A DNA stretch of 51,620 nucleotides, taken from IMG/VR virus record IMGVR_UViG_3300044675_006348, positions 1 to 51,620 of that record; one strand, given 5' to 3'. Positions 55-50,541 of this stretch are shown here, in pieces. The DNA is from a virus. A program made the translations under genes and the position numbers. The notes below the pieces were generated by a model. It did not search any database. It was not told the DNA's origin and saw only the letters and a list, made by a program, of their open reading frames with translations. Within the stretch, counting starts at the first letter, position 1. Each line of letters opens with the position of its first letter.

Positions 55-468
55 ACGATTGCATCTAGGGGCATAGTAGCAAACCTAATGCTATCGGCAC
101 TAGCATTAGCAAACCGTATAGTAAGCCGAACTAATAGCAGCATGGCTAGCATTAGTAAACCGTATAATAACCTACAGTTATCCTGCGGTCGATAGCATTA
201 GTGGAATGAATAGTAAGCTAGCCTTATGATACGATGGATAGCATTAGTAGAACGCATGTTAAGTTGGGCTTATGATCGGTAGGCTAGCATTAGTAGAAAC
301 TATAGTAAGCCGAACTAATGGATCGTAGGCTAGCATTAGACTTGTTTACTATAAGCCGGACTGTTTTCTCAAGTTGAGAAATAAGTGTAGCCTATAGTAA
401 GGCTAGCTTATGCCAAGCCGGATAGCATTAGGTAGCCTACTTTCCTGGGGTATTAGTTGGGCTACTAG
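55..468. repeat. 46-bp periodic tandem repeat array, left end
   Basis: The 9-mer TAGCATTAG starts at 101, 147, 193, 239, 285, 331 and 423, a spacing of exactly 46 bp (92 between the last two). The unit starting at 377 and the one before 101 lack the 9-mer but keep the second conserved block (ATAGTA followed by CTTATG or CTAATG) in register. Each unit therefore has two conserved blocks, and GCATTAG is partly inverted by CTAATG within the unit. The rest of each unit is variable. No open reading frame is supported here. The array lies beyond the last leftward terminator, so it is probably not transcribed by the main operons. An origin, partition or packaging site are possible roles; none is proven. 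Confidence 0.85.
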
Positions 469-939
469 ATTGTAGGATAGAATAAGTTGGAATACTATAG
501 GGTTTAGTAGATAGGCTACTGCTAGGTAAGGCTAGCATAAGCTAGGGTTATAGTTGGGCTAGTTCGCAAAACACTATATCCCCAGGAATAGGCCTAGATT
601 GCCCCAGGATTGACGCAACGCATTGGATGATAGATAGCCCACAATTTCAAAAAACGTTCGTTAGAAACGATTTTAGAACGTCTGTAGAAATCCCCTGAGA
701 TTTCATTGATAGAACCGATCCGAGGCTATCGGATAACATAAGCTAGACTAATGCCGAATAGAATAGCATTAGAAACCAAGATAGTAGCTTAGCTACTTCT
801 GGGTGGGTTAGCATTAGGGAATATGTTAGGCTATAGAACTGGCCTAGATTGCCCCATAAACGTATCGGATCGGATTAGGCTACAAGCATAGCTTGAAACG
901 GTTTGCTAGCGTCAAACGTCAAGCTAGCCACATAGAAAC
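469..939. other. Noncoding, CTAG-rich stretch
   Basis: No supported gene. The stretch reuses short words of the adjacent 46-bp array (GCTAGC, TAGTTGGGCT, TAGCATTAG at 764 and 809) without the same strict spacing. It contains two copies of CCTAGATTGCCCC (about 592 and 842), which recurs in shorter form near 4839. It also has two closely spaced inverted copies of the genome-wide motif (CCCCAGG at about 582 and 601). Confidence 0.6.
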
Positions 940-970
940 GAAAAAACCCCAGTTGATTAGACTGGGGTTT
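940..970 (-). terminator. Intrinsic terminator ending leftward transcription
   Basis: A perfect 10-bp stem (arms 944-953 and 961-970, loop 954-960) reads on the minus strand as AAACCCCAGT, loop, ACTGGGGTTT, followed by three further T. It lies about 20 bp beyond the stop of the last leftward gene. The plus strand has only a short T run, so it works best for leftward RNA. Confidence 0.85.
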
Positions 971-989
971 AACTGGGGTGAATTGTGGG

Positions 990-1190
990 CTAGTTTTGGC
1001 CTAAGGCATCTAGTTGGGCATCTAGTTGGGCTAGCTCTTTTCTTAGTTGGGCTAGCTCTTTACGGGTTTTAGCCGAGTCCCGTTCTGAAAGCCACAATTC
1101 TAATTTTTCTATCTTGATAGCTACCTTGGTAGCCTTTAAATCCAAGTCCCAAGCTAGCTTGATTTCAGGGCTAATGTTTTGTTCGCTCAT
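990..1190 (-). CDS. Small coiled-coil protein
   Basis: A 66-residue, charged, helix-forming protein. Its C-terminal half carries a short duplication (RKELAQL repeated, then DAQLDAL) typical of a coiled coil. The ATG at 1190 was chosen because AGGAAA lies 7 bp upstream, inside a copy of the CCCCAGGAA motif. The DNA encoding the duplication (AGTTGGGCTAGCTCTT twice) uses the same words as the noncoding array to its left, so the gene end may have grown from that repeat DNA. It is followed by a strong terminator. Function unknown. Confidence 0.65.
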   Translation of the reverse strand: MSEQNISPEIKLAWDLDLKATKVAIKIEKLELWLSERDSAKTRKELAQLRKELAQLDAQLDALGQN

Positions 1191-1212
1191 GGTTTGTTTC
1201 CTGGGGTGAGGG

Positions 1213-1314
1213 TTAAATGCGGATAAGGATAGAGTAGTCAAACAAAATTTTGGCTATTAGGGACTCGACCAACAAAATTCCAGTTAGTATCTCTAGTCTT
1301 GAAAAAACCTGCAT
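1213..1314 (-). CDS. 33-residue hydrophobic peptide
   Basis: The ATG at 1314 follows a strong ribosome-binding site (AGGAGA, about 9 bp upstream, inside a CCCCAGGAGA motif copy). The peptide begins MQVFSRLEI and is hydrophobic through its middle (LTGILLVESLIAKILF), compatible with one membrane helix. It sits between a promoter and the coiled-coil gene, probably forming a two-gene unit. The product is too short to assign. Support is the promoter, the ribosome-binding site and position. Confidence 0.5.
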   Translation of the reverse strand: MQVFSRLEILTGILLVESLIAKILFDYSILIRI

Positions 1315-1343
1315 TGTTCTAATCTCCTGGGGTGAGGAACTGT

Positions 1344-1362
1344 CGGCTACAAAGTGTAGCCG
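1344..1362 (-). other. Leader hairpin
   Basis: CGGCTAC at 1344-1350 and GTAGCCG at 1356-1362 form a 7-bp stem with a 5-nt loop, between the promoter at 1371-1398 and the peptide gene start at 1314. It could structure the leader RNA. It is not followed by a T run. Confidence 0.45.
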
Positions 1363-1370
1363 GGAATAGT

Positions 1371-2980: not shown

Positions 2981-3043
2981 CAATTGACTACCGAAAGAAT
3001 CCACTAGCCTATTCGCCTAGCGTATCCTGGGGGGTGGAACGGA

Positions 3044-3629: not shown

Positions 3630-3836
3630 TGTCATTTTGGCACAGTCAAATTGGCAGCTGTCATTCTGACACTGTCAAAACGGCAGCTGTCAAAATGGCA
3701 AGTAGCTAAACTGATTTCTCAAAATGAGAAATAACTCTAGCTTATGATTCGTAAAACTGATTTCTCAAGTTGAGAAAGTAGAAGAACGAATACTGCCAAA
3801 ACGACAGTGTCAAAATGGCAGACTGTCAAAATGGCA
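3630..3836. repeat. Array of eight TGTCA-N3-TGGCA sites
   Basis: Thirteen-bp imperfect palindromes of the type TGTCAAAATGGCA start at 3630, 3644, 3659, 3673 and 3688 (spacing 14-15 bp), and after a gap at 3794, 3808 and 3824. The gap holds two 17-bp TTTCTCAA..TTGAGAAA palindromes (3715-3731 and 3761-3777). The regular spacing and the two clusters resemble iterons of a replication origin, a partition site or a cooperative operator array. There is no gene across 3317-4251. Confidence 0.85.
3715..3777. repeat. Paired 17-bp TTTCTCAANNTGAGAAA-type palindromes
   Basis: TTTCTCAAAATGAGAAA at 3715-3731 and TTTCTCAAGTTGAGAAA at 3761-3777, 46 bp apart start to start, the same period as the left-end array. 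A third identical copy of the second form lies at 365-381 inside that array. These are likely protein-binding sites. Confidence 0.75.
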
Positions 3837-3841
3837 GTCGA

Positions 3842-3869
3842 GGGGTGTACTAGCACAGTGGTACACCCC
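3842..3869. other. Strong hairpin flanking the site array
   Basis: A perfect 9-bp inverted repeat, GGGGTGTAC (3842-3850) and GTACACCCC (3861-3869), with a 10-bp loop. It directly abuts the last TGGCA site. There is no adjacent T run, so it is not a typical terminator. The surroundings also contain GTAC-rich partial repeats to about 3890. Confidence 0.6.
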
Positions 3870-3945
3870 AACTGTACTAGGTCTGTAGTACACTCGCACA
3901 AATCACACACAACAGCCACCAATCCCAGGTACACGTGTAAGACGA

Positions 3946-4090
3946 CTCTGGGGTTTTTTTATTGGGGTTTTTTCGTGTGAAGCCGACTCCGGGTTTTTTT
4001 ATTGCCAGATTTCCCGTACGAGAGTTCGACTGGGGTTTTTTCTGGGGGAGTTTCTCGTACGAGGCCCTATGCTGGGTTTTTTCTGGGGAG
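3946..4090 (+). repeat. G-tract plus T-tract repeats
   Basis: Five blocks of CTGGGGTTTTTT type occur on the plus strand (near 3949, 3964, 3990, 4031 and 4073). They have T tracts of 6-7 and G tracts of 3-5, spaced irregularly by 15-40 bp. A 9-bp inverted repeat, CGTACGAGA / TCTCGTACG (4015-4023 and 4053-4061), is embedded. No coding capacity is supported. Curved DNA, G-quadruplex potential or a packaging or origin site are possible. Confidence 0.65.
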
Positions 4091-4935: not shown

Positions 4936-6138
4936 CTAAGATTTGTTGCAGGTCAAGAATATGCTGTTAAGGATAATCTTTGTACCAAACTCACTGTAAG
5001 GAATGTTAGCTGCATGAGCTGACGATCTTAACCAGTGAAGGATTGTTGATAGATTATCTTTGCATCCTTGTACACCCCAAGCATCCATGATAGCTGCTCG
5101 TTCTTCACAACCACAATTAGGATTCGATGGAGCAAACCAAGAGAGAACAGAAGCTAGCTTAGTTCCTGGTCCACCTGGGGTATCAAGTAGTGTAGACAAT
5201 CCAGCTTCTACTCGAAGTTGATTAGCGATGGATCGGGTTACTTCGTTAACTGTTCGAGGACGACTACATCGATTGCATCCTCGACATTCTTCTGGGGTGG
5301 GGTAGTGAGGGATAGTAGCTAGTTCGGTGATTATGTTGCACTCTCCGGTGTCGGCTTCAAGGAAATCGCAAACAGGTGTAGGTAACATTTTGGTGAATAT
5401 TTCTACTCGGTTAGGACAGTTGGCATAGTGTTTGATGTCGCAAGAAAATGATTCGAAGTTTGGCATCCACCATTGATTGTTTTTGTTTCTAGGAAGTGTA
5501 GCAACATTGAACGGAATTGTTTGGTGTTCAATCCAGAACTGTTCAGCACAGTGAGTGTTAGGTAATGAAAACAACGGTGGTTTCCAAATGTTGGCTGCTG
5601 ATTGTTTAGATACTACTACTCCGGTGTTAAAACAACCATGCCTCCAGAGATAAGGTTCAACTTGTAGTCGTTGAGACAACAACACGGTAGTTTTTTCTGC
5701 AAGCATCCAGGCATGAGAAGGTAGCCAAGGATAGTCATCATGCATAGCTACGTCGGCATCCCCAAGATAGTCTACCAGGTTTGGGCAATTAGGAGAGACA
5801 ATGCAGTCGGCATCAATGAAGATTGTATACTTGTAATGCTTAGCATACTCGTACACCCTAAACTTTTCATAACCCCACCATTCCTGGGTGGTGTTGGTTA
5901 GGGCTATGTAGTCTGCTCCGATGGACTGAGCATACTGGTGGATGGATGGGTTGCATTCTAGTATGGTGACAAATTCTTCTCCAGTAGCTACAGTAATTAC
6001 CAAGGTGTCTTTAATTGGAGACACTGTAGGAACTACTGCACGGTATCCTGTCGGACCTTTTTCTGGGGTGAGTACCTGGACTGTGGGACTGCTGTTGGAG
6101 TCTGATTGGTTCGTTGGGGTGAATAATACTTTGACCAT
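4936..6138 (-). CDS. GT-A type glycosyltransferase with Cys-rich C-terminal domain
   Basis: A 400-residue protein at the distal end of the tail operon. Residues about 45-250 look like a nucleotide-sugar transferase of the GT-A fold. There is a beta strand TLVITVATG, a DAD metal-binding motif at about 109-111 within TIFIDADC, and a later FNTGVVV segment as in GT8-like enzymes. The C-terminal third has a CRGCNRC cluster (about 286-292), then a domain with GPGT, CGC, RAAIMDAWG and a final Cys. I associate this arrangement, from memory, with proteins in planctomycete genomes. No signal peptide is present. It could modify a tail or fibre protein or host surface sugar; the target is unknown. It starts 2 bp after the upstream gene's stop. 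Confidence 0.7.
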   Translation of the reverse strand: MVKVLFTPTNQSDSNSSPTVQVLTPEKGPTGYRAVVPTVSPIKDTLVITVATGEEFVTILECNPSIHQYAQSIGADYIALTNTTQEWWGYEKFRVYEYAKHYKYTIFIDADCIVSPNCPNLVDYLGDADVAMHDDYPWLPSHAWMLAEKTTVLLSQRLQVEPYLWRHGCFNTGVVVSKQSAANIWKPPLFSLPNTHCAEQFWIEHQTIPFNVATLPRNKNNQWWMPNFESFSCDIKHYANCPNRVEIFTKMLPTPVCDFLEADTGECNIITELATIPHYPTPEECRGCNRCSRPRTVNEVTRSIANQLRVEAGLSTLLDTPGGPGTKLASVLSWFAPSNPNCGCEERAAIMDAWGVQGCKDNLSTILHWLRSSAHAANIPYSEFGTKIILNSIFLTCNKS

Positions 6139-7445: not shown

Positions 7446-8210
7446 TTAACACTCCGCAAAAACGATGACCCAACGTCCGTCACCTTCTACAGCTACGAGA
7501 TTCTTGTTAGAACCTACGGCTATAGTGGTGCTACGATTGTACCCAATCAACTGAACTGATGTACTATTCCATCCACCCCCAGAAGGAACTTGCAAGTTAA
7601 ACGGTCCACTACTGGTAGTTCCAATAGCATTGATGGATCGTCCACAAACTGTCGTTCGTAGTCTCCTGGTGAGGGAAACCATAACGTGAGACTTAGCTGG
7701 ATCGAGGTTACCGATTATCTCGGCTCGACCAAACAAGTCGTACGTCATAACTCCGTTGACGATATCGATTCCTCGGTAAGTTGCCAAGTTTGCACTAGGG
7801 GTTGTACCGCTGATCTTGAGGAAGTTGACTCCTGAAAGTAGTACAGGGGCAGCTTGAGTGCTAGTGATAAGTCCGAGAGCGATACCCCAATGAGGAAGCC
7901 AACCGTGAGTAATCGAATTGTATTCAGAAAGTTTATTAACGTAAGCTGTCGGGACATTTTGAGTTTCCTGGGGGAGTGTGGCGTTGTTGGTGTCGAATGT
8001 GAAAGCTGGTTTCCATATGAGTACAGGTTCATACGGTTCGATAACTTGGTCCCCAGTTTCAAGTTGACCCATGATTCTAACATCGTCGGGAGAACCTTGA
8101 ATACTTGGTACAAAGTTGGATGGAGAAGGAATACGAGTAAGCTCGTTGACAAACTTACTCGTAAAGATTTCTTTGAACGGTGTTCCTGGATGAACTGCTC
8201 GTCTTGTCAT
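7446..8210 (-). CDS. Tail-module structural protein
   Basis: A 254-residue protein, beta-rich in its C-terminal part (Gly/Ser/Thr-rich, ending VEGDGRWVIVFAEC). It overlaps the upstream gene by 4 bp (ATGA), indicating translational coupling. It has no recognised domain. Position among distal tail genes suggests a baseplate or fibre component. Confidence 0.6.
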   Translation of the reverse strand: MTRRAVHPGTPFKEIFTSKFVNELTRIPSPSNFVPSIQGSPDDVRIMGQLETGDQVIEPYEPVLIWKPAFTFDTNNATLPQETQNVPTAYVNKLSEYNSITHGWLPHWGIALGLITSTQAAPVLLSGVNFLKISGTTPSANLATYRGIDIVNGVMTYDLFGRAEIIGNLDPAKSHVMVSLTRRLRTTVCGRSINAIGTTSSGPFNLQVPSGGGWNSTSVQLIGYNRSTTIAVGSNKNLVAVEGDGRWVIVFAEC

Positions 8211-9331
8211 AGTTGGAATTCTTTGTAGTCTGCGTATTTGTAATGTCGGAGAACACTACGGTGAGAAGGCACTCGAATTACTCGACCTCTTGTGCCGGAC
8301 ACAATCTGCGGAGCATACTCATAAGCTACAATACTCCAACCAGAGTGTACACCGGCAGGTTGAGCACCATTAGAAGAGTTTACTTCTGTTGGTGGAAACT
8401 CAGGTTCGTAGATGGTATCGAACTGATTGGTTGTAACAATAACTTTTCTACCACCAACAATTGATACTTGATCGTTAGGATTGGCAATAGCTTCTGTTGT
8501 GTCTGAGAACCTAAAGTTTGGTTTGACTTCAAACTCAAGAGTCACTGGCACAGCTTGATACAAATCACCTTCACCAGAATAACCCATAAACATCACACTT
8601 CCTGGGGCGAACCCAAAGAAGTTTTTGCTGTTCATTGTGGTGAGTAGTCTGGATAATCGACGGACGTAAGAGTACGTCAATTTGGTTGGTGGCATGTACT
8701 GGGTGATTTGAAACTTGAAGGAACGAACATAAACTTCTGCTCCTTCAATCCCATCTTCACTGTACCCAATTAGTCCATACCCACCATTTTGGTAGGGAAG
8801 TGGTTCTGTACCAGGACGATTCTTGGCTCTCTGACATTCAATTACTCTGGCTTTTTGTATCTTTTCAGTAGTAACACTACCGTTGAAAGACACTTGAGTA
8901 AACTTGACTGAATTGTTTTCACCGTCAGATGGACCTGTTGCTCCACCTGATCCACCACCCTGGTTTGAACCGTTGTCATCTGGAATATCGTAGGTAACTT
9001 TGATTTCCCAAGTTGTCCAGCTGATCTGTTTGGCAGTCAAACTCGCACAGTACAACAATTGAAATTCTGTGTCACTGATGTAAAACATGAATGTCAATGG
9101 AACCAATCCGTAAAAGATTGGTAACAGTTGTTGCTGCATTACTTTGTCGTCATACAACAGGTCCAGATTTGTTCCTGGGAGATTTTGTGATTCAGCCCAT
9201 TCGACAAACCAGTCGCTGGAGATTCTAAATGTAAAGTCTTTTGTGATGGTTTGTCGATTGATTGTGAACCCACGTGAGTCTCCAAAGACTTCTTCGTATA
9301 CAACATCGTTCGGTCCAAAGTCGCTAGGCAT
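8207..9331 (-). CDS. Distal tail / baseplate protein candidate
   Basis: A 374-residue protein downstream of the tape measure and a 98-residue gene, in the position where distal tail and hub proteins are normally encoded. It has a Gly-rich linker at about 125-135. No diagnostic motif seen. It overlaps the genes on both sides by a few bases. Confidence 0.6.
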   Translation of the reverse strand: MPSDFGPNDVVYEEVFGDSRGFTINRQTITKDFTFRISSDWFVEWAESQNLPGTNLDLLYDDKVMQQQLLPIFYGLVPLTFMFYISDTEFQLLYCASLTAKQISWTTWEIKVTYDIPDDNGSNQGGGSGGATGPSDGENNSVKFTQVSFNGSVTTEKIQKARVIECQRAKNRPGTEPLPYQNGGYGLIGYSEDGIEGAEVYVRSFKFQITQYMPPTKLTYSYVRRLSRLLTTMNSKNFFGFAPGSVMFMGYSGEGDLYQAVPVTLEFEVKPNFRFSDTTEAIANPNDQVSIVGGRKVIVTTNQFDTIYEPEFPPTEVNSSNGAQPAGVHSGWSIVAYEYAPQIVSGTRGRVIRVPSHRSVLRHYKYADYKEFQL

Positions 9332-9620
9332 GATGCGTCTCCTCTTGAAACTGTTCGGCTTCTTCTGAGAGAATTTCTTCCAGTTCTTTGCTGTTTACAA
9401 AGTTGTAACGATCAGTCAAGTAAGCAATTGCTTTAGAACAATCAATGTCAACAAAACCAATCGTCTCCCCCAGGGGGAACTCTTTGACTGCCGGCACTTT
9501 TACTGGGGAGAATAGTGCTCGGTAGTCTGCATAGAACATTCGAAACGTAGGTCGTGGGTGTTTCGATAGAATCGACAACATGCTGTGAGCAAGAGCTAAG
9601 CTAGCTTGATCCGAAATCAT
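9324..9620 (-). CDS. 98-residue tail-module protein
   Basis: It is encoded between the tape measure and a distal tail protein, overlapping both. It is mostly helical with a very acidic C-terminus (SKELEEILSEEAEQFQEE). Function unknown. Confidence 0.55.
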   Translation of the reverse strand: MISDQASLALAHSMLSILSKHPRPTFRMFYADYRALFSPVKVPAVKEFPLGETIGFVDIDCSKAIAYLTDRYNFVNSKELEEILSEEAEQFQEETHHA

Positions 9621-12600
9621 CCTATACCACCTTGAACTGAAAGTAGACGATTAGTTTCTTGTTGTAGAGCATTGCCTTCTTTCATCAAATCTTCTTGCCG
9701 TTTGGTGTCGGTTCGAAGAATTGCTCTGGTCGACATAGCCCCACCCGTTAGTGCTTGCAAGAACTTTGGAAGTTCTTGTTGCAGTTGTTGTTGAGGATTG
9801 TTTTGTGTAGAGTACAAAGATCGCAATAAAAATTGTTCTCTTTGAAGCAATGCTGCTTTTTCTCTAGCATCGGCAATCGCAGGTTTGGCAAACAAGTCAT
9901 TTAGTCCCGAAGTCATAGCGTTGTATTCACCCAAATCTTCTGGAGTCTGTAGACTGTCGTACAGCTTTTTCATATCTGTACTTCCTTGATTTTTGTCTGC
10001 TTCTGCCAACCTAGCTCTTACAGAAGCAAGTTCTGTTTGAACTTCGTTGTAGGCTTTCTGCTTTTGTGCAGCAAGTTGAGCATCAGAAGGACCCTTAGTG
10101 TCTTGTTGTAGACCAAACATTGTAATTTGTCGGTTCAACAAGTTTGTTTCTAACATGGTGTTTAGATTTTCAAACTGAGCTTGCATACTATACTGTTGTT
10201 GCAAAGAACGTTCGTTAGCTCCAGCAGCAGTACCAGCTCGACGTCGAGCTATTTCCTGGGGGGAGATAGCCATGATTTGTTCGAGTTGTTTGGCTCGTTG
10301 CTTACGTTCGAATTCAAGCATACCTCTTGCGATGCTAGCTTGCATTTCCGTTGTGGTCCTTCTACCCATACCTTCACGTTCAATTTCCTTACCAGCATTC
10401 ATGCCGGTTAGAGTGTAAATTGAACGGCCAAGTATAGTCTGAAAGTCTGCAAGGAATGTTTGTAGTGTTTCACTCAAAGAAATTAGTCCCTTGAAGAAAC
10501 CTGTGACAAACATGTCGATGCCTTTCACAATCATGGTGGCTGTTTGAGCCATGTTACCTCCACCGCCACTACCAAACACGTCTCCAAGTGAAGCCATGAT
10601 TGGTGAAGCCATGAAGCTAAACGTCTTGGAAATTCCCTCGAAGATACTCATGAAGATTACCTTGAGTCCTTCGAAGATTTTCCTGAGGACGATCCACATG
10701 TATTCAACATGGACTAGGAAGGTGTTCCAAGCGGCAACAAGTTGGTTCTTGATGATGTCTACTAGACCCATGAAACCAGTTTGTAGAGCTTGAACTCCCA
10801 CTCCCGTTTCTCCCTGGCGGAAAGCAGAGAAGGCTAGTTTGAACAAGTTCATTGCTGGACCTGCATATGTTGCGACTTTACCTAGCTCACCAAAAGCACC
10901 AGAAATACCAGCACCAAGTGCCTTGAAAGCATTGACTACTGCCGGAATCTTGTCACCGAACATCAACAGTACGTTGAAGATCATGCCGACGAAGTTCCAA
11001 GAAAACACAAACCGTGTAATGGATGCTGTTAACTTTAAGAACCCTATACCCAAGGTTAGAATTCCTTTACCAGACACAGCTGCTGTTCTACCAATTACTT
11101 TTAGACCCTGTATCATGCCGGTCATTTGAGATTTTTTTGCTAAACCACCAGCAAGTGAAGCCGACCTTCTTGAAGCCAGCATTCGTTGTTTGTAGCTTGC
11201 TGCTGCTTGAGCATAAGGTGCAGGGTTAGCTCCACGTGCTTGAGCAGCAGCTGCTAGTGTTGATTGAAAACGATATTGCCGAGTCATTTGAGCAGCATGA
11301 AGGTTGTAACCTTTTTGTCGATTCTTGTAGAACTTCGTTTCTTGTCTGGTTTGCAGTCGTTCTCCAGCAGCAGCACGTAATGCACTAAAAGATGTTACTG
11401 CGTTTTGTCTTGCAGCAATTTGTCTTTTCATTTCAGAAAGTTTTGTGGTTCCTGAAATTAAAGATTGCATTCGTTTTCCTTGAGCCACTCGTTGTATAGC
11501 AGCAGCTGCTCCAGCAGGGGTTTTACCAGCTTGAGCTTTAGCCATAGCTATGTCCACAGCTTGTTGCAACTTAGCTACCTTTTGTTGTTGCTTCTTATAT
11601 GCAGCCATTTGAATGGCTATTTGCGACGGTGGTCTTTTTCCTGGGGTGAGTGCTTTACTTAGGTTTACTAAAGATGTACCCATCAAGCCACCCAATGATC
11701 GTAGTCCTTTTCCAGCAGCAGTCAATCCACGGATAACTAAAGCTAGTCTGGATAGAGCAAACGATAGGGTGTATGCTCCAACCATTGTGGTAGCAAAGAT
11801 TACTGGAAGCATCAAGAATGTTGCTGCTAGTAGTTTGTTCTTCTTTAACCATTCTTCGAACAGGGTGACGATGTAAGCACCCATGTTAAAGAGTGCAAGA
11901 AACTCTCCTTCAACCAGTTTTCCGGTGGTGATTTTGAGTGTTTCAAAAGCACTCGTCAATCGACGAACAGCACCACCTGGACCTTCTTCCATCTTGGCAG
12001 CAGCTAATCGAGATTCAGCTCCAGCTTTGCGGATTTGCTCGATAAACGATTCCACTCGCTCAATTTCCTGGACGGATGATACTGCCCGAGCACCACGAAT
12101 GTTAAAGATGTCTCCAAACAGTTCAGCTTTTTGTAGCCGAGACATGTTCTTGGTCAGCTCGAACAGATTGTACATCGTGGTCAATAAATCTTCGTTGCCA
12201 GACGCATCGGTGACAATTTGAAACGAAGGAAACGTTTGTCGCAGTCGGTCTGAACTTTTAATCATGTTTAGCAATGCTGTGTTCAAACTCGTACCAGCCA
12301 AGCTAGCTTTGAGTCCAGACTCGGACATTTGAACAAGAAAGCCCAATAAGACTGGAAGTTTGATTCCCAAGTTGCCAGCAGTACCAGCAGCATACTTGAG
12401 AGATTCTCGAAGGTCAACAATTTCAACCGTACCTAAACGAGTAGCCTTCACCATTTGGGAAGTTACGTTGGTGATGGTATTCATTCGAGTTTCGAGAGTA
12501 TCGTTTTCACCAAACATATTGAACGTACGGATTACGTTAGCCAACATGTCTGCTGATTCACCCAGAGCATACCCAGTACCTCGGGCAAAGTCAAGAGTAC

Positions 12601-14618: not shown

Positions 14619-15062
14619 TTAGAAGTTGAACTGGCGAGCTAGTCCCACCTTGAACTCTTTGGCAATCGCACCACGGGCAGTCAACTGCTTTAGTGTGTGA
14701 CCCATGTAAGATCGTTCAGGGTAGGAATAGTAACTAAACTGACTGAAAAATGTTCCACCAAACTCGTGAATGTGTGGAACAGGTTGATTGAAAAAGTCGC
14801 TACCTGGAAACTTAACAGGACCGATGATAGCTCCGTTTGAGTAGGTAACAAACTCGATGATTCTCAAACCACCCCTAGTTTTAGCAAACGGCGGGTTTCC
14901 TGGGGAGGAAGTTTGTTTGCTGATCTTGAGTGATCGAATAGCTGCCCCACGAATGAGTGCAGCTGTTCTTGTTAGGCCATTCTTTTTACCACGATCAACA
15001 CGGGTGTTGAACTTTTGTAGATAGAACAGTGATCGAGCAACATACTTGAACATGACTAGCAA
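14619..15062 (-). CDS. Neck protein, HK97 gp10-like candidate
   Basis: A 147-residue basic protein in the head-tail joining region. The N-terminal half, with an RGAAIRSLKIS helix followed by a glycine-flanked loop and a later HIHEFGGTFF segment, resembles the HK97 gp10 / minor tail type. It overlaps the next upstream gene by 7 bp. Call by weak motif and order. Confidence 0.55.
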   Translation of the reverse strand: MLVMFKYVARSLFYLQKFNTRVDRGKKNGLTRTAALIRGAAIRSLKISKQTSSPGNPPFAKTRGGLRIIEFVTYSNGAIIGPVKFPGSDFFNQPVPHIHEFGGTFFSQFSYYSYPERSYMGHTLKQLTARGAIAKEFKVGLARQFNF

Positions 15063-15523: not shown

Positions 15524-15879
15524 GGAGAACCTTTCTCGTTCATCACTAATACTGTGCGACGATGTTCACCGTCGTTGTAAAAGTAAGAACCTTTTGCATC
15601 TAGTACAAGTTCGTAAGTCACGTTGGTGGCTGGATTGAGGATTTGTAGTCCTCGAACCAAAGAGATTTCGTACTTAGCCAGGTCTTGTGTGGGGACCAGG
15701 ATATGGAACCGAGGAGCTTGAGTCTTGACTGAGTTCGAGTCTAGCAAGTGTTTACACTCCGAGATAGTCCCTTTTATCTCAAACTGGGGCTGGCCTGGAT
15801 AACCAATTAGCAGATCAACATCAGTAAATTGTTCTGCTTGTTTATACAAGAAATCCAGCCCCCAGGAAAGAAAATTCAT
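15517..15879 (-). CDS. Head-tail connector candidate
   Basis: A 120-residue protein directly downstream of the decoration-like protein. Its content (a beta-rich core with RFHILVPTQDLAKY) and position suggest a head completion protein. No motif gives a firm family. The 48-bp gap upstream holds an imperfect CCTAGA / TCTAGG hairpin. Confidence 0.5.
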   Translation of the reverse strand: MNFLSWGLDFLYKQAEQFTDVDLLIGYPGQPQFEIKGTISECKHLLDSNSVKTQAPRFHILVPTQDLAKYEISLVRGLQILNPATNVTYELVLDAKGSYFYNDGEHRRTVLVMNEKGSPC

Positions 15880-20390: not shown

Positions 20391-20408
20391 GAGTTCTCCT
20401 GGGGAGGG

Positions 20409-24110: not shown

Positions 24111-24437
24111 TTAGTTAGAAAATACTAATTCAAATGTTTTGGTAGTAGCTTCGGCTGCACTAAGTTTCAATCGAAGTGTGTCTAACCCTCTGGTGTTTTC
24201 TGGGTCGAGACTGATTGTTCTTGCTGTTGTTGCAAGGTTGTAAGTTACTAAAGTGTCTTTGACGTAGTTGTCAAGGTGTGTAACACCATCGTCTACAGAA
24301 CCTTGAATACTGAATGTCGGTGTGCCAGTCATTCCTGGGGCAGTTACTCTAACTAGACCGAAGCCAGCAGCTACGTTAACTGGGGTGCTGGTGATTACTC
24401 CAGCGGAAAACGTAACTGTTTCTTTGTAGATGCTCAT
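24111..24437 (-). CDS. Small beta-rich late protein
   Basis: A 108-residue protein with alternating polar/hydrophobic pattern and Thr/Val richness, typical of a jelly-roll or Ig-like virion protein. No signal peptide. It is encoded among late genes. Function unknown. Confidence 0.55.
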   Translation of the reverse strand: MSIYKETVTFSAGVITSTPVNVAAGFGLVRVTAPGMTGTPTFSIQGSVDDGVTHLDNYVKDTLVTYNLATTARTISLDPENTRGLDTLRLKLSAAEATTKTFELVFSN

Positions 24438-37892: not shown

Positions 37893-38645
37893 TTAGCTAT
37901 CTAGGTTAGAAGCCAAGATAACTTTCTCGTTGGCAGGATTGTCGATGCCTTTGATCTGAATCTTTCCTGATCCAGCAAAGACGTCAACGACTTTCCAAGA
38001 CTGTTCGAGATACTTGACCTCAGCTCCAACTGCTGGCAATCCGGCTGGGGGTGCAGTCGGGGTTGGTGCTGCAACAGGTGTTGCAACGGGTGCAGGAGCA
38101 GGCATTCCCATCGGTGGCATGACGCTGTCGTTGGCTTCGATCACAGTGTCCATAGTGGACAGTCGAATCGACTTACCATCTTCACCGTATTGATCGGCAT
38201 AGATGGACCAGTGAAATGCAAGACCTTCTTTGGTCAAGAAGTAGTCGCCAATCTCGCTAACAGATTGGTGTCCTGATCGGATTTCCCTGGGGAGACCGAG
38301 TTTCTCCATGTCGTTCAAGAACATTTCGAACCGTTGAGCAGAAGTCATCTTTGCTGAGTCACCAAACCACCACAGCTTCTTCAAGGTCTTGCCTTGGTGA
38401 TCTGGATGATCGACGATTGGCAACACCATTTCGCAGAACGGTGTACCTACTTTGGTAGTACCGTCGGCTTGCAGCTTGTCTTTGGTGCTGTTAAACGAGA
38501 AGCCGGTCACGATGCAAGTACCGCTGGCTCCCAAGGGAACAGGGACGTTGGACAATCGGGATTCTGCTGTCTTGGCCTGCTCGATTGCGTTAGCGTTACG
38601 GCCAAGGAAGGACATGAATTCTTGAGATACTGCTGACTTTTTCAT
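37893..38645 (-). CDS. Single-stranded DNA-binding protein candidate
   Basis: A 250-residue protein; the ATG at 38645 (MKKSAVSQEF) is preferred. The first 170 residues suggest an OB-fold-type domain (GTCIVTGFSFNS, MVLPIVDHPDHQGK, LKKLWWFGDSAK). A Pro/Ala linker (about 180-205) precedes a small SH3-like end (VGAEVKYLEQSWKVVDVF). Its position next to the Sak4-like ATPase is typical for phage SSB/recombination pairs. Assignment by context and pattern. Confidence 0.6.
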   Translation of the reverse strand: MKKSAVSQEFMSFLGRNANAIEQAKTAESRLSNVPVPLGASGTCIVTGFSFNSTKDKLQADGTTKVGTPFCEMVLPIVDHPDHQGKTLKKLWWFGDSAKMTSAQRFEMFLNDMEKLGLPREIRSGHQSVSEIGDYFLTKEGLAFHWSIYADQYGEDGKSIRLSTMDTVIEANDSVMPPMGMPAPAPVATPVAAPTPTAPPAGLPAVGAEVKYLEQSWKVVDVFAGSGKIQIKGIDNPANEKVILASNLDS

Positions 38646-38727: not shown

Positions 38728-39504
38728 CTAGGCTCCTTTCTTGTATGCCTCAGGAAAATGTTTGAAGAGGTTGGTCCAGGCTTCCTGGGGTGATTGCCCC
38801 ATAGGAATTACTGGTGGCATACTCCACCGATTTTTGGCTTGGTGTGCTGTCGAAAGAGTCGTGTATATAAGACGATTGTTCGATTCAACAGCTTTCCCTT
38901 CCATAGCTAAACCGGATGCTTTTTCGGTCACACGATTGATAGCTACGTCGAGGTTGAGAAAGAAGATGAATCCAGCCCAGGCTGTGAGAGTGCTTCTCAT
39001 ACCAAGACCTTTGTCGCCATCTTCCATATTGATTACGTGACACAAAACGTCTGCACCCATCGTATTGGGTAATGGGATTGTGCCTACGTGACCAATCAAA
39101 ATAACGTTAACTCCTTGATTGACCTTGGTTGAACAAGCATCAAGGAATTGTTGCAACACTTGTGGTGATTCTTTACGAACACCAGACGAGTATGCGTGAA
39201 AATCTTTGCTGTTGTTCTGGTAGTACATACGTAGAACGTAATCAAAGATTTTGTTTTGCAAACCTTTGGTGCTGTCGATAACAACAGTACCTTTCACGAC
39301 TTTGCCTACAGCCGAAACAAGTTGCTCGAAATTGTCGATGACGTAATTCACCGAATTTTCTGGAACTTGGTTGACCATTTCAAGGTCTTGATAGCCGGTT
39401 TCACCCACTGACATGCAATGGACTGGACCGGGAAACTGGAGTGCAAGGCTGGTTTTACCCATACCTTCACGACCATAAATAACACCTGATAAACCACGGG
39501 ACAA
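38728..39504 (-). CDS. Sak4-like RecA-fold ATPase
   Basis: A 258-residue ATPase. Walker A GREGMGKTS at 11-19, Walker B GTVVIDSTK with Asp77, and a NVILIGHVG strand later, as in Sak4/RecA-like single-strand annealing partners. A TTG start at 39504 with AGGAG 7 bp upstream. Together with the SSB candidate it likely handles recombination. Confidence 0.8.
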   Translation of the reverse strand: MSRGLSGVIYGREGMGKTSLALQFPGPVHCMSVGETGYQDLEMVNQVPENSVNYVIDNFEQLVSAVGKVVKGTVVIDSTKGLQNKIFDYVLRMYYQNNSKDFHAYSSGVRKESPQVLQQFLDACSTKVNQGVNVILIGHVGTIPLPNTMGADVLCHVINMEDGDKGLGMRSTLTAWAGFIFFLNLDVAINRVTEKASGLAMEGKAVESNNRLIYTTLSTAHQAKNRWSMPPVIPMGQSPQEAWTNLFKHFPEAYKKGA

Positions 39505-41489: not shown

Positions 41490-41731
41490 GAGTTTGGTTC
41501 CTGGGGTGTGTGGAGTTGTTTTTGAGAATTCTTTGCTTCCTGTTCTTTTCTAACAGAGTTTTCGCATCGCACTAACTTGTGTCGCCAATCATCGTAATAG
41601 AAACCTGTTCCGTAACAAGTAGGGCATGGACCTAGATCAAGAGAACCAATCATACCATTTTCAGAACAGTAGTTTCCTTCGGCCTCTAGTTCTTTCCGTT
41701 CTTTTTCAGAATATTTTGGTTGATGGCTCAT
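41450..41731 (-). CDS. 93-residue zinc-ribbon-like protein
   Basis: The ATG at 41731 overlaps the upstream stop (ATGA). A CPTCYGTGFYY segment plus another Cys (RCEN) could bind zinc as in DnaJ/Zn-ribbon proteins. It overlaps the nuclease start by 40 bp. Function unknown. Confidence 0.6.
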   Translation of the reverse strand: MSHQPKYSEKERKELEAEGNYCSENGMIGSLDLGPCPTCYGTGFYYDDWRHKLVRCENSVRKEQEAKNSQKQLHTPQEPNSCNGNGKAQSTGE

Positions 41732-43716: not shown

Positions 43717-43739
43717 GAGGGAATTTCCTGGGGTGAGAG

Positions 43740-44134: not shown

Positions 44135-45266
44135 CTGTTGTTTCTCCTACGGGTTTGTCACAGTTTTCTTTGCGGAAGTAGTGGATGCCTACCGGACAAC
44201 GTGGTACACCGTATTCGGAGTAACCTTCAAATTCGACTTTGAGGTACTGACCGATGTAAGTGTCTTTGTAGGTGAGTATTTGCTGACGTTTGGCATGAGT
44301 TCCCTTGAAAGAACACTTGAATTCTTTGCCGGAACTTGTTTCACAAACAAACACACCTTGCTTGTTTGTTCCTGGGATGACGTCGACGATGAGAAATTCG
44401 TTATCTACGAATGCTTTCATCTTGAGTAACGACGTTGATCGTTTGTTGACTTCGTAGGGAGCATTGCTGTTACGAATCATCATACCTTCGTAACCGGCAG
44501 CTCGATAAGTGTCAAACTGCTCTCGTAGTTCTTCTTCTCCTGGGGGAGTGTCGTGTAAGACAGTGTGTACCATCTTAAATGGACACTTGTGTGAGAAGTA
44601 AGGTAGATTCTTGAAGGTAGACTTTGGGTCGGTTCTCCAACGAATGTAGACTTCTTCGAGTTCGAAGACAAGTCGTTCTGCTTCGAGTACACGGGCTTCG
44701 AATGGAGCTTCGGTGTCGATGATGTCGAATACGTGGTACTCGATTTCTTTGCATACAGCATAGTCTGGACGACTACGCATGACGTATGACTCGATTGTGT
44801 TCAGGGGAGTGTTGGGAATGATTAGTTCCCCGTCGAGCTTGATGCCTTCCGGTAGTTTGGATATGTACAACTCGATATGAGGACAGGACATGAAGTACAA
44901 GTTTCGTCGAGACAATAGTCCTTCACGGGACATGATACATCGAATGCCGTCGAGTTTGGGTTGCAAAGCAACTTTGTCGAACTTGACATTACCCTTGTAT
45001 TCTTGAGCCAACATGGGTAGGTCGGGTGAAGCTGTCGGAATCGTTTCGGTGAAACCTTTACGATCTTTTTGGTGACGAATACGACTGTGATATTCGTCGA
45101 CCGCTTTTTCTGGAAGGACTTCGATGACTTGTTCACCGTGTTGGGATACTTCGGTAGAAGTCTTGCTGCATCGGCCCCAAGTAACAGTGAGTATGTTGTT
45201 GTTAACGGTGGCTGTCCACCAAGTAACGTCGTTGAAGTTGTTCAGTTTGTAGAGAGTAGTTTGCAT
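44115..45266 (-). CDS. ATP-dependent DNA ligase with WGR-like N-terminus
   Basis: A 383-residue ligase. Residues 1-65 are WGR-like (TVTWGRCSKTSTEV). The adenylation lysine is Lys104 in QPKLDGIR; LDGELI (Glu147), YHVFDII, EGMMIR and LLKMKAF follow as further nucleotidyltransferase motifs. An OB-like end has YLKVEFEGYS and GVPRCPVG. It seals nicks during replication and repair. WGR-ligase fusions are known, but uncommon. Confidence 0.88.
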   Translation of the reverse strand: MQTTLYKLNNFNDVTWWTATVNNNILTVTWGRCSKTSTEVSQHGEQVIEVLPEKAVDEYHSRIRHQKDRKGFTETIPTASPDLPMLAQEYKGNVKFDKVALQPKLDGIRCIMSREGLLSRRNLYFMSCPHIELYISKLPEGIKLDGELIIPNTPLNTIESYVMRSRPDYAVCKEIEYHVFDIIDTEAPFEARVLEAERLVFELEEVYIRWRTDPKSTFKNLPYFSHKCPFKMVHTVLHDTPPGEEELREQFDTYRAAGYEGMMIRNSNAPYEVNKRSTSLLKMKAFVDNEFLIVDVIPGTNKQGVFVCETSSGKEFKCSFKGTHAKRQQILTYKDTYIGQYLKVEFEGYSEYGVPRCPVGIHYFRKENCDKPVGETTDARSNP

Positions 45267-45734: not shown

Positions 45735-47228
45735 TTACTCTGCGTAAATGTAGTAAAGGTCTCGTTTGGTACGGGTGTGTGCAACAAAATCAATGTTGAT
45801 TTCTTGCTTGATTTCGATGTCAGTCTTTGCTCTTTCTGACGGAACTGGTGGATTTAGGATGCCAATAATGTCGGCTTCCAGTCCTTTTGCTTTGTGAATA
45901 GTACACAAAGTGATGTGTTTTATACCTTTTGGGGGTTTGAGTAGGGATTGTACCAGTGGTTCGAACTCTTCAATACTGTTACAGTCTTTGAGGATATGGC
46001 GGATACAGTCAAAACGATCGGCTGTAGCTTGTTTTGCCATTGGACTGCCAGCACGAAGGCAAAGTTCTTCGTAACTAGCAAGTTTGAGTAGAAGATCGTC
46101 GATATTCTTGGCTCTACGGTTTTGTACTGTAGAAATCAAAGATTTTGCCAGTGAATCACCCAAAGTTCTACAAGGAATTTGGTTTTTGACCAGCTGTAGT
46201 GCCAGTTTCATCAACGGAGCATTGTATCTACAGATAATCATTGGGCTGTTTTCGACCATAGATCGACTCCATTCAACGATGTTTTCTGCTCGAACTTTGC
46301 CTACAATTCCTGGGGTGCGGTCGGGAAGGGTGCGAATTTGTGCTGACGGGCAGATTGTGTTGGCTGTTTGGGCCATGTTTGGTGGTAATCTGAACGAAAG
46401 TCGCAAAGGAAGTTGTGTAGAACAGTGTTCTGCGATCTTGCTGATTGATTCTGGGTCTGCACCAGTCCAAGCATTGATAGCTTGGTTAGTGTCACCCACA
46501 AAAACCAGGTTACGACACAGTTTGAAGGACAAAGCCAGTCTAGCTGGGCTTAAATCCTGGCATTCGTCTACAAAACCGATTTCGTACAAGGGTTTTGGTA
46601 ACATAAACAGGGCTAACCACACTTGGAGCATATGACTTATGCCCAATTGACGGTGATTTGCGGACTTCATAGCCCGAATAATCTCGGATGCTTGCTGACA
46701 AATGTCTGGATGAATCTTGTACGGAGCAAGATCACTGTATTTGGCTTGCATCAAATACATGTTTTCTTCGGTCACTTCGAGCAATTCTTCTTGCAGTTTT
46801 TCTACAAAACGGAAGGAAGTGATCCAAGAAAACCTGTTTTTGTCACTAGAAAGGGTACGTCCAGTGACAGTTTCGATCAAACGGTCAGTATAATCCTTTT
46901 TGTTGAGAGGAACGTACCCGATTGCTCGTTGCAGTACCTTGTACCCCCAACCGTGGTGAGTCTTGACTTCTGACTCTGAATGGATACGATTCTTGAGATC
47001 GTCAACAGTAGTGTTGTTGTAGGCCAAATAAATGGCAGGCAACGGCTCACCGTTTTCTTTCCTGGGGAGAGACTCCCTGCACCAGTTGTAGACTGCGGCT
47101 TGTTCTTCTGTGTGACGGAACTTTTGTAGCCATAGTTCTGGTTTGGTGGTTCGGTAGTAGATGTAAGCATCAACGATTGTGGAAGTTTTACCACAACCTG
47201 GTCCGGCATTGATTAGTAAGTTTGGCAT
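45735..47228 (-). CDS. UvrD/Rep-type SF1 helicase
   Basis: A 497-residue helicase: Walker A INAGPGCGKTST (Lys14), Walker B FVDECQDLSP, FVGDTNQAI, SFRLPPNM, and TIHKAKGLEAD near the C-terminus, the standard SF1A motifs. It is shorter than UvrD (about 720), and the 1B/2B insertions are reduced. It may unwind for replication or recombination. Confidence 0.85.
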   Translation of the reverse strand: MPNLLINAGPGCGKTSTIVDAYIYYRTTKPELWLQKFRHTEEQAAVYNWCRESLPRKENGEPLPAIYLAYNNTTVDDLKNRIHSESEVKTHHGWGYKVLQRAIGYVPLNKKDYTDRLIETVTGRTLSSDKNRFSWITSFRFVEKLQEELLEVTEENMYLMQAKYSDLAPYKIHPDICQQASEIIRAMKSANHRQLGISHMLQVWLALFMLPKPLYEIGFVDECQDLSPARLALSFKLCRNLVFVGDTNQAINAWTGADPESISKIAEHCSTQLPLRLSFRLPPNMAQTANTICPSAQIRTLPDRTPGIVGKVRAENIVEWSRSMVENSPMIICRYNAPLMKLALQLVKNQIPCRTLGDSLAKSLISTVQNRRAKNIDDLLLKLASYEELCLRAGSPMAKQATADRFDCIRHILKDCNSIEEFEPLVQSLLKPPKGIKHITLCTIHKAKGLEADIIGILNPPVPSERAKTDIEIKQEINIDFVAHTRTKRDLYYIYAE

Positions 47229-48558: not shown

Positions 48559-48572
48559 GGTTTGAGAGTTGG

Positions 48573-49052
48573 TTAGAGGGAGCTGGACGGGGTAAGTGGA
48601 ATTGGAGTTTGAAGTAGGAGTAGGCAAGTCACTGGTACTACTACCGATCCTGGGTTTCTGGCTTGGAATCGTTCACAGACAAGTCTCCATTCACCAGTCT
48701 GGGTACGATATACTTGAGTAGCTTCGTACACAGTGGTTGGTGGAAATCGCTGGAGTTTCCTGGGGACGTTGATACCGTTGAGTATTACCAGCTTTCCTGG
48801 TAGTTCGGTTAGCAAGTCGTATGCTGACAAGTACGTGGTACGTTGAAGGGTTTGGGGTGAATCGGCAAGGACGTTGCAGACTTCAAGTTGAGGTGGACGG
48901 TAAGACTCATTATACTTTAAGTATTCGGGCATTTTTTCGAGAACAATACCCAGAGACGAAACTTTGAAAGGGGCTCTAAAGTATGTTTCCCTACAAACAA
49001 CACCGTCGTCTGTACCTGTGAAGCTGATACGGGTGAGAGTCATGTAGCTCAT
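48573..49052 (-). CDS. 159-residue hypothetical protein
   Basis: It overlaps the upstream gene by 4 bp (ATGA). Beta-rich (TGEWRLVCERFQARN). Unknown function in the early operon. Confidence 0.55.
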   Translation of the reverse strand: MSYMTLTRISFTGTDDGVVCRETYFRAPFKVSSLGIVLEKMPEYLKYNESYRPPQLEVCNVLADSPQTLQRTTYLSAYDLLTELPGKLVILNGINVPRKLQRFPPTTVYEATQVYRTQTGEWRLVCERFQARNPGSVVVPVTCLLLLQTPIPLTPSSSL

Positions 49053-49426
49053 GCTGGATCTTTTTCAGGTTTGAGTAAAGGTTCGAGGCCGAGAGATTCA
49101 CGAAGATTGTTGATGGTTGTACGACGTTCGTCCGTCCAAGTAGTGTTGGATTCACCTTCACAGTAGAAGGCTTGGTCACGAGAAACAGGATTTACTGAGT
49201 AGTCGTACATTACGTCGATTTCGTGGTATGTACCGAAGTCGTGAGGGTTGGAAGTGGTTTTGAATCTAACAAGACAACCTTCTTCGGGCCACTTGAGTAA
49301 GATTTCTTCGAGTAGTTGTTGTTTGAACAAACTGAGTTCTAGTTTGCACAAAGTACGGTAGTGTGGACTTTTGAGGTCTGCTGCTATTTCGTCAGCAGGA
49401 CAAGGACCAATGTTGAGGGATTCCAT
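49049..49426 (-). CDS. 125-residue hypothetical protein
   Basis: Begins MESLNIGPCPADEIAADL. Mixed helix/strand with a C-terminal helical segment (TWTDERRTTINNLRESLG). It lies 5 bp from the upstream gene and is coupled downstream. Unknown. Confidence 0.55.
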   Translation of the reverse strand: MESLNIGPCPADEIAADLKSPHYRTLCKLELSLFKQQLLEEILLKWPEEGCLVRFKTTSNPHDFGTYHEIDVMYDYSVNPVSRDQAFYCEGESNTTWTDERRTTINNLRESLGLEPLLKPEKDPA

Positions 49427-49431
49427 GAGAG

Positions 49432-49962
49432 TTACTGTGGGTTTTGTGGGTTAGAGTGGTAGTCGATTAAAAACTGGAGTCGACGTAAGCCTTCTTTTAG
49501 ACCTACTTCGTGTGTACAGTGTTCCCATCCTGGAAAGTTTTCGTCGATCGAAAATTCAGAGAGATAGTTATGCGGAGCACAAAGTGTTACAAAGTTATTG
49601 GGATAGAACAGAAATTCTCGTTCAGCACTGGTTAAGTCTAGCCAGTTTTTAGCTGATTCGACTTCGTCGTACTCACCGTCGAACGAGGCGACTTTGCAGG
49701 ATTCAAGCAATAATGCATTTGTGAAACCGATCATGCAGCCACAAGAACCGCAGGTGTGAATTGTATTGTCTTGTATCAACAACTTCAAAGCTGTTTCAAA
49801 ATTTGAAGTTGTTGGACCAGTCCAGCTAGCATCTTTGTGGTACTTTGATTTTGGTCCTACCGGACAGTGGGGTATAATAGCTAGAGTACATCGGTAGTTA
49901 AAGTTGTCTGAAAAGGCAGTAACTGTTTTTAACAGTTGTTGGAGACGTTCTACGTTAGCCAT
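49432..49962 (-). CDS. 176-residue Cys-containing protein
   Basis: The ATG at 49962 (MANVERLQQLL) is chosen because AGGAAA lies 9 bp upstream in a motif copy. TCGSCGCMIGF and a later CAPHNYL may bind zinc. Unknown function. Confidence 0.6.
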   Translation of the reverse strand: MANVERLQQLLKTVTAFSDNFNYRCTLAIIPHCPVGPKSKYHKDASWTGPTTSNFETALKLLIQDNTIHTCGSCGCMIGFTNALLLESCKVASFDGEYDEVESAKNWLDLTSAEREFLFYPNNFVTLCAPHNYLSEFSIDENFPGWEHCTHEVGLKEGLRRLQFLIDYHSNPQNPQ

Positions 49963-49984
49963 GAGTGAGAGTTTCCTGGGGGTG

Positions 49985-50230
49985 TTAGGATAGAAAGGTG
50001 ACAACTGCGACTTTGTCGAATTGCTTGGCTTCAAGGATAGCGGTGTCTTGAGTCCAGTCGGTGTGGTTCAGGGTTCCGTTTTCATCCCAACACCAAGCCG
50101 CAAATTCTTTCACTGTATCGTTTGCGTAACCCGAACCAATGCAAATACCGTTGAATCTTGAGTAGTCACCTTCGACAAGAAGAAATTGCAAAGGTTCGAT
50201 AAGGTTGTTGTAGATAATGAGAGTTTTCAT
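49985..50230 (-). CDS. 81-residue hypothetical protein
   Basis: Begins MKTLIIYNNLIEPLQF. It overlaps the upstream gene by 4 bp. Beta-alpha pattern. Unknown. Confidence 0.55.
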   Translation of the reverse strand: MKTLIIYNNLIEPLQFLLVEGDYSRFNGICIGSGYANDTVKEFAAWCWDENGTLNHTDWTQDTAILEAKQFDKVAVVTFLS

Positions 50231-50541
50231 GAGAGTCGTGACTTAAGTTTGTGTTCGAGTTTGGTGAGGAGTTCTGAGTACTTGTAAAGATACTCGGTGT
50301 TTTCCCAAAGTTCTTTGACGAGTTTGAGTTTAGCCATTGCTACGGAAGGATTACCGAAGTTGATTTCTTTTAGAATGTTATCCTTCTGACGAATCAGGAT
50401 AAAATCTAGTTGAGTCTTGTTCTGGATGGTCAACTGGTTGTATTCGAATGAGTTCTGAAAGATCGCATCCTGAGACTCCCCCTCGGAGTTGGCCGGTGAA
50501 TTTCCTGGGGAGGGAGGCGGTAGAGGGTTTAGTTGTTCCAT
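50227..50541 (-). CDS. 104-residue hypothetical protein
   Basis: Start ATG at 50541 (MEQLNPLPPPS) with AAGGAA about 13 bp upstream. Pro/Ser-rich N-terminus, then a helical, charged remainder. Unknown. Confidence 0.5.
   Translation of the reverse strand: MEQLNPLPPPSPGNSPANSEGESQDAIFQNSFEYNQLTIQNKTQLDFILIRQKDNILKEINFGNPSVAMAKLKLVKELWENTEYLYKYSELLTKLEHKLKSRLS

Follow-up and report, generated by a model that had tools for sequence, protein, structure and literature searches.

An oriented motif repeated throughout the genomes of a tailed-phage family, with a phage-encoded primase as its candidate reader

The virus genome studied here, IMG/VR record IMGVR_UViG_3300044675_006348 (a complete record of 51,620 bases, analyzed at its full length and called "the window" below), carries an oriented motif, most simply followed as CCTGGGG on the plus strand, that is real, selected, and family-wide. 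Its copies are possibly the places on the lagging-strand template where the phage's own primase, an enzyme of the DnaG/T7 type, starts its primers; we put the probability of this reading at roughly 0.4. By its gene content the virus is a tailed phage: genes could be named for a terminase, portal, head protease, tape measure protein, DNA polymerase, primase, SF1 helicase (UvrD-like), ligase, Sak4, and a PD-(D/E)XK nuclease. All 63 called genes lie on the minus strand, referred to below as the sense strand, on which the motif reads CCCCAGG.

Excess, form, and distribution of the motif

A sequence-only reading of this DNA had reported about 32 copies of CCTGGGG on the plus strand against about 6 inverted. 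Our recount gave 33 and 6, far above the 2.4 and 0.9 expected from an order-2 Markov model. The longer word TTCCTGGGG occurs 22 times against 0.3 expected, and TTCTGGGG also occurs 22 times. The excess over the order-2 model is thus 14-fold for the 7-mer and 71-fold for the 9-mer, which rules out low-order base composition as its cause. The Markov check of order 5–6 that the same reading had proposed was run but was uninformative: order 5 returned 29.6 of the 33 7-mers and order 6 returned 19.6 of the 22 9-mers, because an order-5 model of a 7-mer already holds the motif's own 6-mers.

Synonymous codons were then shuffled (200 shuffles per genome for exact words) on simple gene calls, 63 in the window, rather than on curated annotation. 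In the coding sequences (CDS) of the window, CCCCAGGA fell from 22 copies to 0.77, with a maximum of 4 in any shuffle. The same treatment left 1.1 of 29 copies in the relative G004 and 0.6 of 9 in G012, and the excess agreed in all seven genomes tested. The 22 sites occupy codon phases in numbers of 12, 6, and 4; all three frames are used, as had been claimed. These nulls, and one of 100 shuffles in a later analysis, rule out a protein or codon effect as the cause and, together with the conservation of sites in relatives described below, support the earlier suggestion that selection acts on the nucleic acid rather than on the protein. The motif copies of the window, located by exact-word search, are listed below, followed by two further features.

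442-450, plus: TTCCTGGGG copy, lying in the end region that bears the 46-bp repeats
1198-1206, plus: TTCCTGGGG copy ahead of the gene start at 1190
1326-1332, plus: CCTGGGG copy
3026-3032, plus: CCTGGGG copy
5174-5180, plus: CCTGGGG copy
7965-7973, plus: TTCCTGGGG copy; the ATG after it, at 7957, is not a called start
8599-8607, plus: TTCCTGGGG copy
10253-10261, plus: TTCCTGGGG copy
11638-11646, plus: TTCCTGGGG copy
14897-14905, plus: TTCCTGGGG copy
19360-19368, plus: TTCCTGGGG copy
19719-19725, plus: CCTGGGG copy
20398-20404, plus: CCTGGGG copy; the ATG after it, at 20390, is not a called start
20933-20941, plus: TTCCTGGGG copy
24332-24340, plus: TTCCTGGGG copy
24916-24924, plus: TTCCTGGGG copy
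25850-25856, plus: CCTGGGG copy
25961-25967, plus: CCTGGGG copy
27409-27417, plus: TTCCTGGGG copy
28721-28729, plus: TTCCTGGGG copy
30379-30385, plus: CCTGGGG copy
34104-34110, plus: CCTGGGG copy
34733-34741, plus: TTCCTGGGG copy
38286-38292, plus: CCTGGGG copy
38782-38790, plus: TTCCTGGGG copy
41498-41506, plus: TTCCTGGGG copy ahead of the gene start at 41489
43725-43733, plus: TTCCTGGGG copy ahead of the gene start at 43716
44539-44545, plus: CCTGGGG copy
46307-46315, plus: TTCCTGGGG copy
47059-47067, plus: TTCCTGGGG copy
48757-48765, plus: TTCCTGGGG copy
49973-49981, plus: TTCCTGGGG copy ahead of the gene start at 49962
50502-50510, plus: TTCCTGGGG copy
580-588, minus: inverted TTCCTGGGG copy
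602-608, minus: inverted CCTGGGG copy
9468-9474, minus: inverted CCTGGGG copy
15860-15868, minus: inverted TTCCTGGGG copy
29766-29772, minus: inverted CCTGGGG copy
32382-32390, minus: inverted TTCCTGGGG copy
31710-33740, minus: gene for a primase-helicase, the proposed motif reader (begins with GTG; CPFC...CKVC, TOPRIM, P-loop GAPSSGKT)
85-818, no strand: end region rich in repeats, among them TAGCATTAG copies of which six are spaced at 46 bp; may be an origin or end signal

A position weight matrix (PWM) trained on seven genomes, the same ones in which its sites were counted (the exact-word counts are independent of it), has the sense-strand consensus YCYCCCAGRAAA, or TTTYCTGGGRGR on the other strand. 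At a score of at least 10 it finds 89 sense and 10 inverted sites in the window and none in the reversed sequence. The trinucleotide CAG, that is, CTG on the other strand, stands at 99–100% in the pooled sense matrix, and a core of CCCAG or CAG was recovered in five of nine single-genome fits at a looser threshold (G000, G004, G009, G559, and G560); at that threshold the polarity of G560 is weak (82 sense, 42 inverted). The information content is 11–14 bits. Compared with the extended consensus given earlier, this one is broader and softer. The sense strands of G004 (16:1) and G001 (12:0) are also enriched in C-rich tracts of the kind TCCCTCCC, which may represent only the upstream half of the motif.

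The AGGA part of the motif had been said to serve as the ribosome-binding site of at least six genes. Six sense copies of CCCCAGG in the window do have an ATG 14–19 nt past their first base, but only four of these ATGs are called starts (1190, 41489, 43716, and 49962). Because just 4 of the window's 29 CCCCAGGA words have a called start within the next 20 nt, ribosome binding is not the general role of the motif, and its use in this way is incidental. With no start preference and few sites at called starts, a gene-start element was rejected as the general role.

The motif extends through the phage family. An excess of CCCCAGG with this polarity is present in all 13 records inspected (the window and 12 relatives), at ratios from 37:2 down to 9:3, and CCCAGGA is polar in six further relatives (17:1, 14:2, 23:3, 25:6, 19:1, and 16:3) with portal identities of 34–62% and GC contents of 0.34–0.41. 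The check for the same polarity in related phages, proposed with the first counts, thus came out in its favor, and an artefact of one assembly is ruled out, although some of the 13 + 6 records are near copies (G001 and G003 of the window, G010 of G009, and G561 of G560). Four records reached by weak leads had CCCAGGA without clear polarity (6:4, 2:1, 0:0, and 4:2), and the G564 contig matched neither the large terminase nor the primase or DNA polymerase, apparently because it breaks in that part of the map. Scanning viral contigs with a 14-mer returned 86 stretches and 79 new loci that were scored; when family proteins were compared with the 25 top-ranked of these, the eight most enriched all matched, and the motif was not polar across the whole record in the two next-ranked, unrelated loci. 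No description of the motif was found in the titles and abstract openings searched, although one may still have been published.

Conservation, spacing, and orientation of the sites

Are individual sites maintained? In aligned CDS of the window and G002 (nucleotide identity 78%), CCCCAGGA is shared at 12 of 15 sites, whereas flanking 8-mers are identical at a fraction of 0.21. The corresponding values are 8 of 8 against 0.27 for G005, 18 of 21 against 0.58 for G003, 7 of 19 against 0.07 for G004, 6 of 18 against 0.05 for G006, and 3 of 15 against 0.02 for G012. Sharing was weak with G009 (3 of 14, P 0.05), not significant with G011 (3 of 15, P 0.07), and no higher than in the flanks for the close relative G001 (14 of 21, P 0.4). 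The word CCCAGGAA behaves alike but more weakly (12 of 17 with G002, 1 of 18 with G011). Because sharing exceeds that of the flanks and yet is partial, many sites are evidently kept in place while others are lost and gained.

The sense sites are also more evenly spaced than random in six of seven genomes (coefficient of variation [CV] 0.59–0.79, P ≤0.015). In the window, 3 gaps are shorter than 100 bases where 14 would be expected; 48 of 552 pooled gaps fall below a quarter of the mean, against 122 expected, the pooled gap, skew, and inverted-site counts being non-independent since they come from related genomes. The sites do not clearly favor either end of genes, and a long gene holds several of them; densities per kb are 1.2–1.9 in long genes, 1.7–2.9 in short genes, and 1.0–2.5 between genes. 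Even gaps, indifference to gene ends, and several sites per long gene together suggest a requirement for one site per stretch, not one per gene.

This distribution bears on the idea that a phage DNA-binding protein holds the sites, as a stoperator-like repressor or in packaging or partition. In Cluster A mycobacteriophages, stoperators are described as asymmetric and mostly in one orientation with respect to transcription (PMC6550527), and both these and the start-associated sequences of Cluster K are oriented, asymmetric repeats found across a family, the 13-bp Cluster K sequence even containing AGGAG. The Cluster K sites, however, are at most a few bases away from a start codon, whereas those of the window family are many, mostly inside genes, and without start preference. 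Moreover, no repressor or integrase was named among the 44 of 63 called proteins that were scanned, most of them against one library only. We regard a role of this kind as the least probable of those weighed here.

The inverted copies were analyzed, with the base skew, in eight genomes (G000, G004, G006, G009, G012, G557, G558, and G560); G001, G003, G010, and G561 were set aside as close to others, and G002, G005, G007, G008, G011, G559, and G564 as incomplete or broken elsewhere. By map quarter, inverted CDS sites number 2, 18, 17, and 33 against codon-shuffle expectations of 5.7, 12.4, 8.7, and 9.7. Their sum is 70 against 36.5 (null maximum 45), and the null maximum for the last quarter is 16. 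The sense-site excess is flat along the coding map. Among exact words summed over seven genomes, inverted TTCCTGGG occurs 21 times against 3.6 and inverted CCTGGGG 17 times against 9.9; in G012 the inverted words are absent or without excess. Gene direction is constant throughout, with three small opposite open reading frames called across 13 records and none in 6 others.

There is no reason for an mRNA element to turn up inverted, whereas a replication-linked element has one near an origin. Since the inverted excess lies near one map end without any reversal of the genes, a DNA-level element tied to replication is most likely. The earlier reading had left open whether DNA or mRNA was selected; the inverted copies make a polar DNA motif the better fit and an mRNA element the worse one. 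A signal on a polycistronic mRNA, by which YCYCCCAGRAAA would direct antitermination, processing, or translation, with AGGA doubling as a ribosome-binding site at some genes, does have points in its favor: the called genes all point the same way as the majority of motif copies, a few CCCCAGGA words stand at called starts, and the sense strand is C-rich and G-poor. In addition, the strongest polar 8-mers of T7 include its promoter sequence, so polar words can be transcription signals. Still, inverted copies that beat a regional codon-shuffle null in the last map quarter, and several sites per long gene with no clear preference for gene ends, render such an RNA signal quite improbable.

The share of inverted sites climbs along the map and correlates with site-masked base skew (rho -0.67 over 32 non-independent points). 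At 4-fold degenerate sites of the sense strand, C stands at 0.22 and G at 0.10; the plus strand therefore looks leading-like. If a fork moves from the left end of the window, the plus strand would be the lagging-strand template and would carry the sites, a placement judged only from base skew and the drift in orientation. This sense 4-fold skew is unusual; it was seen in seven genomes (C 0.21–0.23, G 0.09–0.13) and in a set of 12, and in most of them it is strongest toward the early-gene end.

A primase as candidate reader

What, then, might read the motif? The window encodes, from 33740 to 31710, a 676-residue protein in which a CPFC...CKVC zinc site, a TOPRIM domain, and a P-loop were read by eye. 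It matches a PHROG primase at an E value of 7.7e-8, and its four zinc-site cysteines are invariant in 10 aligned primase sequences. The start is the GTG at 33740, which is needed because the ATG at 33602 would drop the zinc-binding domain. Residues 1–285 were modeled with a predicted local distance difference test score (pLDDT) of 82; the full-length model was poor (pLDDT 44). This partial model superimposes on T7 gp4 with Z 15.3 and a root-mean-square deviation (rmsd) of 2.8 over 188 aligned residues, and on Bacillus subtilis DnaG with Z 15.3 and an rmsd of 4.0 over 210. The best Foldseek match of the primase model is an Aquifex primase with its zinc domain. When solved structures were searched by sequence, neither the primase (taken from its ATG at 33602) nor the PDDEXK protein had a match at an E value of 1.

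Known primases offer several parallels. According to one report, Escherichia coli DnaG primes on 5'-CTG and starts its primers with pppAG, and its zinc domain plays a part in template recognition (PMC5429622); a second describes an effect on T7 primase binding of the 10 nt lying 3' of the pentamer (PMC12839067). The window phage likewise combines a zinc-binding TOPRIM primase with a motif centered, in the pooled matrix, on a trinucleotide, and that trinucleotide is the CTG of E. coli DnaG. The differences are in scale: known sites are 3–5 nt long and hardly enriched in T7, whereas the present motif is 10–12 nt long, strongly enriched, and polar.

From these comparisons we infer the direction of the forks, recognition by the primase, and the sequence of the primer. 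The genome would hold about 90 oriented priming sites, at which the lagging-strand template reads 5'-TTTYCTGGGRGR-3'. Initiation would take place at the nearly invariant CTG, with the zinc-binding domain of the primase gripping the G-rich 3' flank; copying of the pyrimidines 5' of CTG would yield pppAGRAAA, a primer rich in purines. A site of this length seldom arises by chance, so selection would keep one per ~0.5–1 kb, within and between genes. Forks would run mostly from the left end of the window to the right, against transcription. The sequence-only reading had listed Chi-like, primase, packaging, and host-recognized motifs as possibilities; among these a primase site fits best, as a candidate only.

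Several observations weigh against this proposal. The T7 priming words GGGTC and TGGTC, two of the four site words of that phage, are barely enriched in T7 (1.2–2.0-fold) and have no clear polarity (39/55 and 79/62 on the two strands); thus, priming sites need not be enriched. At 11–14 bits the motif is long for a primase site, and in four of the nine single-genome fits (G012, G557, G558, and G564) the CAG core blurs to a pyrimidine-to-purine switch. The gaps in G012 are not evenly spaced (CV 1.08, P 0.82), and the inverted excess is not significant in the window alone (7 vs. 4.0, null maximum 11). Base skew is an indirect sign of fork direction, and it would be unusual for forks to oppose all transcription. 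In favor of the proposal, the motif persists in relatives with a 44–98% identical primase and is not in excess in three records with 25–26% primase identity (L294–L296, two of them near copies), but these records are far from the window family in most other genes too; the co-occurrence is weak evidence, since both the motif and the primase go far back in the family. Finally, the 46-bp repeat array described next was not seen in four more distant relatives, whose corresponding map end has other repeats.

That array consists of direct repeats around TAGCATTAG at 85–431 and 739–818 of the window, six of them at an exact spacing of 46 bp, in a region without called genes; it is iteron-like and a candidate origin or end signal. 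A second region without called genes, 3638–4082, holds several repeats of the TGGCA/TGTCA type (3638–3836), followed by terminator-like units of the CTGGGGTTTTT type at 3948, 4030, and 4072. Nine TGCCAAAACGGCA-like copies occur near the same map end in G009. Alignments of G003 and G001 with the window begin at base 6 of both records on the right-end side (51615–51620), which suggests that the genome ends are fixed; that of G003 also reaches position 1 of the window. A terminal repeat of 20–399 bases was looked for in the window and not found, and no known RNA family was detected there at the gathering threshold.

Nicking and recombination as alternatives, and implications

The nearest published pattern comes from phages whose DNA is nicked. 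Under this alternative, as in tf, phiKMV, and T5, the motif would mark where a phage or host nickase cuts a single strand of the DNA, in virions or during replication, perhaps in packaging. Work on tf (TACTRTGMC) and Rembedalsseter (WACTRTGAC) describes an oriented 9-mer at 14 and 13 experimentally shown single-strand breaks, respectively, which in Rembedalsseter's group is spread through genes as coding density predicts, 88% in CDS (PMC3517423, PMC11780129). Like the motif studied here, it is a short, family-conserved word found in and outside genes and not bound to starts; in addition, the window phage encodes a DNA ligase. However, these phages and their relatives are described with ~9–14 sites lying toward one side, and in tf and Rembedalsseter 14 of 14 and 13 of 13 are on one strand. 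The window family instead has ~90 soft-edged sites, evenly spread, with a minority inverted: 33:6 in the window and the overall inverted excess given above (70 vs. 36.5), including that of the last quarter. Nicking is an unlikely explanation, though hardly a far-fetched one; if it were correct, nicked genomes would extend to a new, uncultured family.

Chi is G-rich and oriented on the leading strand, and the motif is likewise G-rich on the leading-like strand. A Chi-like signal would be read as TTCCTGGGG by a host RecBCD/AddAB-type enzyme, or by the phage UvrD-like helicase with the PD-(D/E)XK nuclease, and would turn degradation into recombination; the window phage has genes for an SF1 helicase, a PDDEXK nuclease, and Sak4. 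Lambdoid phages also over-represent Chi, with a median observed/expected ratio (O/E) of 2.4 overall, 3.1 without a recombinase, and 2.5 with a recombinase but without a RecBCD inhibitor (PMC3784561). These medians of 2–3, with Chi in some of those phages concentrated between origin and packaging site, nonetheless differ from the at least 14-fold, genome-wide excess of a soft-edged motif that, among the viral loci scored, is confined to the window family; a host Chi would be expected in unrelated phages as well.

The search for a host bears on the same question. Among 392 Planctomycetota and 194 Verrucomicrobiota genomes, copy density never rises above ~1 per 21 kb, whereas the phage has 1 per 2 kb, although the host may lie outside these two phyla. 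Positions 1–25000 of the window had no near DNA match in a phage collection; the capsid-protease protein had no tblastn match at 1e-5 and the portal one weak match (E 0.7), and a portal alignment search of genome contigs found no relative. A portal profile run against these two phyla matched 13 of 149 Planctomycetota, with a top score of 141 bits, and 7 of 145 Verrucomicrobiota, with a top score of 73 bits. A paired-motif pattern occurred in scattered genomes among the matches listed, and TTCCTGGGG counts made in 11 of these were not phage-like. One 3.7-kb portal-bearing locus (L184, in Planctomycetota genome G133) holds TCCGGGG, a word near the phage motif, 11 times against 0.5 expected, with 3 inverted. 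On balance, we find a Chi-like role more doubtful than nicking.

Returning to the primase, we tentatively propose that the whole genome in this phage family is tuned to ~90–100 long, even, oriented start sites for its own primase, such that fork directions could be read from the sequence. If this is true, lagging-strand initiation would be written into the phage genome, unlike the known 3–5-nt priming sites. The family offers numerous and deeply conserved sites, together with a candidate reader that can be named. Should the primase indeed read the motif, the start points of Okazaki fragments would be predictable from sequence, and the turnover of sites would gauge selection on replication.

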